Below, in pieces: positions 45,867-50,659 of a stretch of 64,000 nucleotides of DNA. The notes beneath the pieces are model-generated. The model saw only the letters and a list, made by a program, of their open reading frames with translations, made no database searches and had not been told where the DNA came from. Within the stretch, counting starts at the first letter, position 1, and each line of letters opens with the position of its first letter. The stretch is from Gautieria morchelliformis. Taxonomy: Eukaryota > Basidiomycota > Agaricomycetes > Gomphales > Gomphaceae. A program made the translations under genes and the position numbers. The DNA lies in contig WHVA01000394.1 in assembly GCA_015179125.1 (NCBI GenBank), forward strand, positions 1 to 64,000, written 5' to 3'.

Positions 45867-45998
45867 TTAGTGTAAGGGCTGCTGCCCATCCCCGTAGTGT
45901 GGGTGCATTGGTGGGAGCGTTAACTCCCAATCTCAGGCTGGCGGCAATTGGTGCCGGTCGAGCAGCCCAAGGCTGCCGAGCGTCGGGAGGTGGTACGT
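45867..45998 (-). pseudogene. Duplicated last exon of the modular gene, with an internal stop
   Basis: Preceded by the same acceptor (ccttgcag) as exon 4 of the gene at 47266-47892, it reads YHLPTLGSLGLLDRHQLPP, then an in-frame TGA where exon 4 has Trp, then DWELTLPPMHP and QQPLH with TAA. The intron sequence before it (atttcgcggagctgacaac) is also copied. The duplicated unit is therefore part of intron 3 plus exon 4. It lies beyond the tandem array at 46617-47220. Confidence 0.65.
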
Positions 45999-46616: not shown

Positions 46617-47220
46617 GGGAAAGCATGACCTACCTGGTCAGTCCGACCAGGCTCTGCCGCAGCAGCCCCAGCCGCCGCCGCATCTCCACCTGGGCCTGTC
46701 GTTCCGCGGACTAGATAATAAAGCACGTAAGTAACGACACAGAACGGCGCAGACACAGAGGAGCCCATGTCCTCTTGCGAGTCACGACTCCATCCCTGGC
46801 CCGTATGCGCATTGGGGGAAAGCATGACCTACCTGGTCATCCCGACCAGCCTCTGCCGCCGCAGCATCTCCACCTGGGCCTGTGGTTCCGCGGACTAGAT
46901 AATAAAGCACGTAAGTAACGATACAGAACGGCGCAGACAGAGAGGAGCCGATGGCCTCTCTCGAGGCACGACTCCATCCCTAGCCCGTATGCGCATTGGG
47001 GGAAAGCATGACCTACCTGGTCATCCCGACCAGCCTCTGCCGCAGCAGCCCCAGCCGCCGCAGCATCTCCACCTGGTCCCTGTGGTTCCGCGGACTAGAT
47101 AATAAAGCACGGAAGTAACGACACAGAACGGCGCAGACACAGAGGAGCCGATGTCCTCTCGCGAGTCACGACTCCATCCCTGGCCCGTATGCGGACAGCG
47201 GGGAAAAGCATGACCTACCT
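46617..47220. repeat. Tandem array, three units of about 183-202 bp
   Basis: Units start at about 46617, 46814 and 46997 with ggggaaagcatgacctacct and a truncated fourth begins at about 47199. Each holds a CAGCAGCCCCAGCCGCC-type Pro/Gln-like core, ccgcggactagataataaag, and ends gactccatccc...gtatgcg. Differences between units are small indels in the CAG/CCG core. Flanking copies of gactata(a/g)gcgggtgaatgcgt lie at about 46541 and 47221. Confidence 0.8.
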
Positions 47221-47265: not shown

Positions 47266-47892
47266 TTAGTGCAAGGGCTGTTGCCCATGCACCATCGCGG
47301 GCCCATCCCCGTTAGGTGGGTGGATGGGTGGGAGTGTTAACTCCCAATCCCATGGCGGCGGCAGTTGGGGGCGATCCAGCAGCCCGAGGCTGCGGATCGT
47401 GGGAAGTTGAAACGTCTGCAAGGGCCGTTGTCAGCTCCGCGAAATAAAAAAGTCATGGTGGATGGCGGAGAACATGAACATGCATCATGTACTCACATTT
47501 GGCATCGGTGGGCCAGGCAAATCCCACTGTTGTGGGTTGAGAATCGGAGGGAGCGTTAGCTCCCTCGGCTGTAGTGGCCGCGGTGGCGGCTGCTCGTACA
47601 GCCCGAGGCTGCCGAGGGTAGGGAGGTTTTGAGTCTGGCACCGCTCTCAGTTCAAGCAGGGAGAGCGCGTGATATTTGTGTACTCACGTTAAGCGCCCGA
47701 GGACGCTGCCAGTCCCCATGTTGGTGTTGCTGCATGGGAGGGAGGGTGAGGTTCCCAACCGACGCTGGCCGCGAGGGCTGATGTTCACGCAGCCCGAGGC
47801 TGCTGAGACTAGGCAGAATCTGCACGTACTGTGAGTTCCAGCAGTGGTAGCATGAGAACGGTACTCACGTTGGAAGGGCCGGGACGGGACAT
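47266..47892 (-). CDS. Unrecognised modular protein encoded by four phase-0 exons
   Basis: Exons on the minus strand: 47892-47869, 47819-47688, 47634-47497 and 47415-47266, separated by GT-AG introns of 49, 53 and 81 nt. The total is 147 residues. Exon 1 is only eight codons (MSRPGPSN). Exons 2-4 each encode one 44-49 residue module with LPSLSSLGL, LPTLGSLGL or LPTIRSLGL near the start and LTLPPM or LTLPPI near the middle, plus a Trp (DWQ, WDL, WDW). All exon borders are phase 0, so modules can be gained or lost without changing frame. Pro-rich and probably disordered, apart from the two motifs, which look like short linear binding motifs. The same module starts the divergent zinc-finger gene at 49016. 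No family recognised. ATG chosen because it alone keeps phase. Confidence 0.7.
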
Positions 47893-48967
47893 TTGTGGTG
47901 GATGTGAGTTGGGTCGTTGGGTGGCAGGACGGAACAAAGGAATTTATATTCGAGCAAGTACGCCATTGTTCCGCTGATGAGCGCTAGGTTCAAAGTCCGC
48001 CTTCGGCCGAAACAGCTCCCTAACATAACAAGTATAAGCGACGTCAATGGAATCGAAAAAAGATAACGGCTGGCTTGTCTATTCAGCGGTCACCCGGGCC
48101 CAGCCCTAAGTACAGCTCGTCACTGAGCTACCCAGCAGACAAAGGCATATCAGCGCACCTGAGCTATGGATGCGCTCTGCCGCCACACCCTGCCAACCTC
48201 TGAGGTAGAACAGGCTTTTCACCTAAGGTCAGGATCATTTGATGGAAAAACTTCACCAGCGCCAATTAGCATTCTCTTAGGCGGGAGTGCTTGCAAGAAA
48301 TCATAATACTAATAATCGCAAGCACAGCCTCAATGGTCCGGGGTCGAGACGACTTCACCGTATGTAACTAGTAGAGCAATCGCTATGGGGTGGGAAGAAC
48401 TGAGCTGGCAGATTCTGGTCTGGAGGCCGAAGCTTTGTGTACCGGGGACAACCCACCAGCTGTACCCTTTTTTGAGCATCGATCATCGAGGCAGGGACAA
48501 TTCTCAGAGAAGCGAGGCAGAAAGCGGAACGATACAAACAGACTGCGATAATGCTTACTGTGAAGTTGAGTGTAATTTTCACGCGGAACCACCATCAGCG
48601 GCCCGGGATTCGTCCGCGGCGCTCTGGAACCGTCTTTCGCAGTTGATTTGGGTGACCAAACGTGTCTGTCCATGAGGCTTTCGAATAAGTGCGATCTCGT
48701 CCGGGGATGGCCGAGTCGCCTGCCCTTCTTTATCCTGCCACCCACATCCAACCTCGTCCATCCTGTCCCTAAGATGAAGCATCTTGCCCAAGTCCCAAGA
48801 TACACCACGCGCGTTGCGGGAGGCACACGTGCGCTGTTCCCCACCCGACTCTCAGCTCGCCCCGCTGTAAGTACCCGCCGCGATCACTTACGCCAGTTTT
48901 ACCATTCTCACCTTGATCAACACGCCTCTTCCTCGCAGTCAGGCGCGATCACCACACATCCAAAATA
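47893..48967. other. Intergenic region between the divergent modular genes
   Basis: About 1.1 kb separates the two divergent starts and should hold both promoters. Open frames here (for example 48383-48844 minus, 48648-48977 plus) overlap on opposite strands and show no recognisable domain. No motif is asserted. Confidence 0.3.
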
Positions 48968-49015: not shown

Positions 49016-49780
49016 ATGTCTCATAGCGACTTTGCCGTCAACTTCAATGTAAGTACCATCATCATGCTCTCCCTGCCAGAACTAACGGCAGGTGCAGGTG
49101 AAACTGCCCACTATCAGCAAGCTCGGGCTGCTTAAACAGCAGCCCTCGCAGCCGGCAGTGTCGGCTCGGGATCTCACCCTCCCTCCCATCCAGCACCCAC
49201 ACCAGTGGGACTGGTTGTGTCCCGGACGGACACAGTCGGATGGTAGCCCCAGACGCCATCCAGCACGCCAACGAGAGTGCTCTCGACGGCACCACGCTAT
49301 CGCACTCGGCCTGAACTCCTGACTCCCATCGACTTGATTGTCAGGGATAGGATGTGTAACTATGTTTCTCTGCAAGGAGAAGTCTGCGGCGAGACTTCGA
49401 GCTGTCAACGAAATGGTGACATAGCCAAGCATTGGCTCACGCGCCATGCGATGTGGGAGTTGAGAAGGATAGAGGAAGGGCAGATAGCGCTGTCCCAGGC
49501 AACCACCATCAACACGGAGGCGAGGATGCATGTTGCCAACAGATTCAGGTCACGCTGCCCACACCCCTGGTGCCGAAACCCAACCTGCTACTATGTGAGG
49601 CCGGAGGCCCTCACTGAACACCTAACAACCTGCAGAGCCGGGCCATACTTGCCTCCTCGAAGCCGTGAAGCAGCAAAGCAGTTGGCTCGTGAGCTGCTGG
49701 CGGAGATTGTCCAATATGATCGGGAGTTGTTTAGGAACAGGTATGAGGCAGCGGTGTGGAGGATTCTCCATGCAAGGTGA
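49016..49780 (+). CDS. Zinc-finger-like protein with one N-terminal LPTI..LGL module
   Basis: Exon 1 (49016-49048) encodes 11 codons (MSHSDFAVNFN) and ends phase 0 at GTAAGT. The next exon starts at 49092 or 49098 and gives VKLPTISKLGLLKQQPSQPA, then LTLPPIQ and WDW, the same module as the divergent gene. The main domain lies at 49277-49780. It has MCNYV...VCGE...CQRNGDIAKHWLTRH (C...C...H...H) and a second cluster CPHPWCRNPTCYYVRPEALTEH followed by C, suggesting two zinc-binding fingers of a fungal C2H2-like type. Joining the two parts needs a 35-nt intron (49243-49277) or a frameshift, so that junction is uncertain. A DNA-binding role is inferred. Confidence 0.5.
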
Positions 49781-50063: not shown

Positions 50064-50525
50064 AAGTTATTTAACAGGGGCGCGGGTTAGCACAGGTGGA
50101 ACTGACCCAAACCAAGCGCCCGTTTGGGATCACGCGAAGGGAGAGCCTCCAGGTTCGAATCCCCCCCTCCCCATTTGTAGCAGTAATTACTACAATGGTT
50201 CACCCCTCTGATAGGTGTCAATAAGTGTTAGGATTACGAGGCTCCTGGACTTCCACCTGGCATATAAGACCTACTGAAACTGACCGGTACTGATATGTAT
50301 CTAAGGTGATTAGGCATTGTAAACAAACAGGAAGTATCCTATGTTGGTGCCAGCATATCTCTGGCTTACTTCGGTAACTACGATACCCTAGCATGTAAAA
50401 CACTTTGATTACTCTATTCCGCGTTCCGGGTAGAGACTGCCTATATAGGGCCCGACCCCAAGGTGGCAGTATAATAAACGGAATTCAAAAAAAAAAAAAA
50501 AAAAAAAAAAAAAGTTATTTAACAG
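50064..50525 (+). mobile_element. tRNA-derived SINE with poly-A tail and 14-bp target duplication
   Basis: The 14-bp direct repeat AAGTTATTTAACAG flanks the element at 50064-50077 and 50512-50525. The head has an A-box-like ttagcacaggtgg (about 50089) and a perfect B box GGTTCGAATCC (about 50153), as in pol III promoters. A body of about 320 bp follows and ends in a run of about 25 A (50487-50511). Target duplication, pol III boxes and poly-A tail together indicate LINE-mediated insertion. The intact duplication and long A tail point to a young event. Confidence 0.82.
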
Positions 50526-50659
50526 GTCATTCTATGATAGTAGTATCGGTCAACTGAGACTCCTCAGCAACGTTAAAGTAAGTGCCTCCACGTCAACTCC
50601 GCTCCATGCTGCACTCAATCGCCTTTGTCTGTGGTTGTAGTGTCGCCTTGATTGTTTAG

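Follow-up and report, generated by a model that had tools for sequence, protein, structure and literature searches.

The gene described here lies in a 64,000-nucleotide window (the whole stretch of DNA that was analysed) from the basidiomycete Gautieria morchelliformis, and is predicted on the minus strand from 47892 to 47266, with four exons and a product of 147 residues. By our reading of the sequence, exon 1 (47869..47892, 24 nt, phase 0) encodes MSRPGPSN, and it is followed by exon 2 (47688..47819, 132 nt), exon 3 (47497..47634, 138 nt) and exon 4 (47266..47415, 150 nt including the stop), each of which encodes one module: M2 (ILPSLSSLGL...LTLPPM...ALN), M3 (TQNLPTLGSLGL...LTLPPI...MPN) and M4 (TFQLPTIRSLGL...LTLPPI...PLH*), respectively. 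The predicted introns, all GT-AG and all on the same strand, measure 49 nt (47820..47868, or 40 nt with the alternative acceptor considered below), 53 nt (47635..47687) and 81 nt (47416..47496, with a CTGAC close to the acceptor). Because all exon lengths are multiples of three, all exon borders are in phase 0, and the four exons join in frame. A preliminary description of this DNA had seen a small gene built from three exon-sized modules, one in each of exons 2, 3 and 4 with both borders in phase 0, behind an eight-codon first exon; as a prediction from sequence, that observation is confirmed. The module consensus consists of LP(S/T)(L/I)..LGL and LTLPP(I/M), separated by a spacer whose sequence varies; it has three matches in the 147-residue protein, and at least one match in 0 of 100,000 residue shuffles. 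Proline makes up 22% of the protein and leucine 16%; cysteine and lysine are absent.

The start of exon 2 can be read in two ways. An acceptor lying further upstream would give an exon 2 of 47828-47688, which adds YVQ to the protein and leaves an intron 1 of 40 nt. We prefer the GTGCAG acceptor because intron 1 is 49 nt long in 14 of 14 aligned copies (gathered by a pattern that itself ended in GTGCAG), and because a branch-like motif (CTGAC, CTAAC or TTAAC) is kept at 18 of 19 genomic sites, found with a search pattern that contained ACTRAC and allowed up to 3 mismatches; the window copy alone, among these 19, has CTCAC. Given the 49-nt introns and the branch-like motif in the copies, the upstream acceptor was dropped as first choice, and the true start of exon 2 probably lies 9 nt downstream of that implied by the 40-nt intron.

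By DNA similarity, the module gene is a member of a small gene family in its genome. A search of that genome (122 Mb, 1113 contigs) returned 35 matches; a 25-nt signature from the end of intron 1 is found at 19 genomic places, and a 31-nt promoter signature containing GAATATAA (47939..47969 on the minus strand of the window) at 11 sites, ahead of module genes and of two chimeric genes, with up to 3 mismatches allowed and 0 sites for the reversed control of each. Six near-complete copies have three modules: that of the window, those at C442:85.5k, C688:9.1k and C271:450.8k, and an inverted pair in C139 (98.7k and 137.3k) whose members are identical across the stretch compared. C139 also holds units with M2 and M3 only, several of them frame-broken, in which rearranged sequence replaces M4. 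Damaged copies are present in C524, C167, C817 and C1087, and the window itself holds a lone, decayed exon that resembles M4 and is interrupted by an in-frame stop (45876..45998, minus strand). Exon 1 is 21, 24, 33 or 39 nt long among the copies read. Module number varies within the genome, in keeping with the gain and loss for which the preliminary description had seen room: it is three in the six copies above, M2 plus M3 in the C139 units and one in the chimeras.

Directly downstream of the module gene, a 184-bp unit is repeated 2.9 times in tandem (46663-47220), and stretches similar to this array match near family copies including L010, L011, L017, L018 and L021. L009 (6800-6860), L011 (5600-5700) and intron 3 of L017 contain inverted duplicates of either the start region or the beginning of exon 4, as if from replication template switching. 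An insertion at 50064-50526, flanked by two copies of AAGTTATTTAACAGG, has a poly-A end and a tRNA-like head with GGTTCGAATCC, which we take to be a box B; on these features it looks like a SINE. C568 has a single copy of AAGTTATTTAACAGG without the insert, and C688 is without the 50064-50526 segment. ARAGORN, run with the bacterial code, called no tRNA in the window. At 48774-48866 a short ORF start is followed by a GTAAGT donor, possibly the captured first exon of another gene, and 48828-48920 has a 98% match in C524.

Five distinct copies (window, C688, C442b, C271 and C139b) were aligned. Exon 1, exon 2 and the exon 4 core have indels of 3 nt, the introns also have some of 1, 7 and 31 nt, and one of 6 nt falls where intron 2 meets exon 3; the exon 4 tail of C139b differs from that of the other aligned copies. 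Over the 10 pairs of these five copies, damaged copies being excluded, dN/dS is 0.14-0.47. Between the window and C139b, 18, 21 and 38 changes fall at codon positions 1, 2 and 3 (p 0.0026), third positions taking 38 of the 77. Judged by these figures, constraint on the module gene is moderate rather than strong. Our comparisons, all within one genome, show a multi-copy predicted gene with coding-gene marks, whose three homologous modules each have a phase-0 exon of their own after a tiny exon 1.

Such a gene could also have no lasting function and simply be a passenger, carried along by repeats or segmental duplications as mobile or unstable DNA spread its copies. Its copies do lie within longer duplicated segments (window 43926-52658 matches C688 in pieces of 95-98%), retrotransposon-like ORFs are, by reading, abundant in the window, the tandem 184-bp units adjoin the gene, C139 has undergone palindromic rearrangements and several copies have decayed. 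However, exon indels of 3 nt, a dN/dS below 1 and the conservation of promoter and splice signals count against a passenger origin, and we regard this explanation as rather unlikely, if the best of the alternatives to the functional role that we propose below.

A second, divergent gene on the plus strand bears on that role. Its exon 1 (49016..49048, MSHSDFAVNFN) and an intron 1 of 49 nt (49049..49097) precede an exon 2 that begins with a module (49098..49232; VKLPTISKLGL...LTLPPIQ...PGR), beyond which a zinc-finger-like body (49277..49780), with two zinc-finger-like Cys/His groups, has its frame broken relative to the module. Three of the chimeras (C568, C271 and C467) keep an open frame, whereas those of the window and C688 have a broken one. 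These loci show that predicted zinc-finger-like genes can begin with a front end made of a similar exon 1, the same 49-nt intron 1 and a single module. The promoter signature stands before two of the five chimeras (C568 and C467), while those of C271, C688 and the window are absent from its 11 genomic sites; between the window chimera and C568, 28 of 58 sites in the upstream sequence differ. With the C568 chimera as sole query, a search able to detect only close relatives found none in viral_contigs or genome_contigs.

The intact chimeras C271 and C467 differ at 5 of 132 positions in the module and at 98 of 546 in the body; divergence rises about 15 to 55 nt beyond the module, then drops again toward the stop. 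In a body tree of 10 self-chosen rows, one of them 48% filled, with long branches and with the window and C688 bodies left out, the C467 body falls together with a different lineage of bodies (90/96), and a single clade of the three chimera bodies was rejected (p-AU 0.0096) in a test chosen after the divergence jump had been seen. From this placement and this rejection it follows that the same front end sits on two bodies. This is the clearest case of shuffling in the family, and its break lies inside an exon, not in an intron.

The modules of the three-module gene had been thought interchangeable, and here our results part from the preliminary description. In an 18-row module tree, made from the better-kept modules with damaged copies left out and with 7 of its 15 inner branches weak, M4 (100/100), M3 (97/95) and M2 (87/81) form separate groups, and module order is fixed among the copies. 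Since modules group by exon position, they were laid down before these copies spread; for the same reason interchangeability is no more than a possibility, and free module exchange was dropped as an established fact. Most likely, an exon was duplicated together with its phase-0 intron, which gave the module repeats, before the copies began to multiply.

The introns are little diverged. Between the window and C139b, 11 of 183 positions in the three introns differ, as against 18 of 62 fourfold sites (Fisher p 8e-6) and 21 of 100 upstream sites (p 3e-4). In the other three window pairs the raw counts are 2 to 4 of 183 in introns and 4 to 9 of 76 to 78 at fourfold sites, and intron divergence is below fourfold-site divergence in all four window pairs. 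Short introns are partly splice signal, yet the 2 differences in 81 positions of intron 3 seem to go beyond signal needs. Low intron divergence might reflect recombination through introns, another intron function, or chance in short stretches.

Whole-exon exchange of modules between genes, by recombination via near-identical introns, would leave uniform introns beside differing exons, much as the window/C139b pair has them. It might also explain C271, whose exon 3 carries 9 private changes (p 0.005 against its other exons, a case picked post hoc) and whose introns 2 and 3 are free of private substitutions; but a 31-nt insertion sits in intron 3 of this copy. Informative sites conflict for C688, which exons 1 and 4 join with C442b and four exon 3 sites join with C271; but these four sites span 9 bp, a stretch chosen after inspection, and they fit one short conversion tract. 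The C271 exon 3, as a possible exon-bounded block, and this 9-bp stretch are possible cases of exchange by their sequence patterns, set against the clustering of modules by position, the break points of the chimeras within an exon and the absence of any out-of-order exon among the copies read. We think whole-exon exchange unlikely, a little more so than a passenger origin. That the introns instead hold a functional RNA or regulatory element, with the exons less important, is very improbable and found no support: between the window and C139b, introns do change more slowly than any other part of the gene, but the exons keep their frame, 47000-49900 matches no Rfam family at the gathering score (the one match, E 0.86, is at chance level) and none of the three introns folds better than shuffles (z -0.18, -1.64 and -0.38).

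We tentatively propose, as the reading that we favour while holding it at somewhat short of an even chance, that the module protein, disordered and multivalent, is either a partner or a competitor of those zinc-finger proteins that bear the module. The protein would be intrinsically disordered, and each module would be a repeated docking site of two short hydrophobic motifs, LPT(I/L)xxLGL and LTLPP(I/M); we read them as docking motifs because the module is short, hydrophobic and proline-rich and is reused before a zinc-finger-like body. In the chimeras, the single module may tether a common partner to a nucleic-acid-binding body, while the three modules of the module-only protein could allow multivalent binding, so that it would serve either as a co-factor or as a competitor of the chimeras. 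The broken chimera frames of the window and C688, and the decay of many family copies, count against this model, and low intron divergence is not accounted for by it.

The zinc-finger-like family extends well beyond the chimeras. A body query of the genome gave 126 matches at E<=10, many of them weak, and of 40 family loci examined, 5 have a module in some frame and 35 are without one. Seven Cys/His positions, in the pattern C..C..H..H and C..C..H, are kept in 12 of 12 body rows (self-chosen loci), and at the eighth ligand position 10 of the 12 have Cys and 1 has His; judged by these residues, the chimera body would bind zinc. Paired Cys/His ligands are likewise conserved in C2H2-type zinc-finger proteins, although the ligand spacing of the chimera body differs from that of the classical C2H2 finger. 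Pfam zinc-finger models gave no match to the bodies at cut-off (the best, weak, was Sina_ZnF, E 0.019, in one member), and structure prediction of a zinc-finger ORF without an alignment was poor (mean pLDDT 51.8).

In several subsets of this family, dispersed copies that are otherwise near-identical have a hypervariable patch of about 15 nt, located at a single position of the coding frame. Patch-bearing loci are L029-L036, L046/L047/L049, L053, L055, L056 and L062-L076, and STSNYEVNNRDHDGG and STSNYDPNNRYHDGG are examples of the patch. Variability in the patch and elsewhere is 0.278 and 0.002 in set A (4 copies), 0.511 and 0.035 in set B (4 copies) and 0.338 and 0.067 in set D (18 copies, with 17 different patches), the patch value being reached in each set by 0 of 5000 column shuffles, which ignore relatedness among copies. 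The observed value is reached by 15 of 5000 shuffles in a five-copy version of set D and by 161 in set C (3 copies); set E (2 copies) is without a peak (3219 of 5000). With longer flanks the profile of set A peaked at the duplication edge, and it was repeated with shorter flanks. As far as titles and the opening lines of abstracts tell, a known hypervariable system comparable with the patch has single-gene loci with many alleles, whereas the zinc-finger family has dispersed copies and a 15-nt patch; this comparison concerns the patch, not the three-module gene. Those titles and opening lines held no matching report of a hypervariable zinc-finger family. The hypervariable patch may be more unusual biology than the three-module gene itself.

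No known family was recognised for the module protein, as the preliminary description had held: it matches 0 Pfam families and 0 PDB chains (E<=10 for both). The chimera has its best Pfam-A match in PF09414 (E 0.13, under cut-off) and matches one PDB chain weakly (E 0.59). With one module per exon and equal border phases, the three-module gene counts as a symmetric-exon gene, and resembles the symmetric-exon proteins of animals in these features and in its tandem repeats. Animal symmetric-exon proteins are usually of phase 1-1 and carry folded extracellular domains; the module gene, in contrast, is 0-0, with modules of about 45 residues that are proline-rich, free of cysteine and fixed in order among copies. 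To our knowledge, descriptions of symmetric exon modules from fungi are rare, and among titles and abstract starts we found nothing matching on symmetric exons or on introns more conserved than exons.

We consider it quite improbable, on present sequence patterns, that conserved phase-0 introns act as recombination platforms through which small module-only genes and the large, locally hypervariable zinc-finger family trade modules and front ends. If true, the traded front ends would comprise exon 1, the intron, the module and sometimes the promoter, and the trade would keep renewing a repertoire of recognition proteins that might serve in self/non-self recognition or symbiosis. The sharply bounded patch in near-identical copies makes local diversification testable, and the presence of copies of several ages in one genome makes exon duplication, exon loss and domain fusion directly readable in this family.
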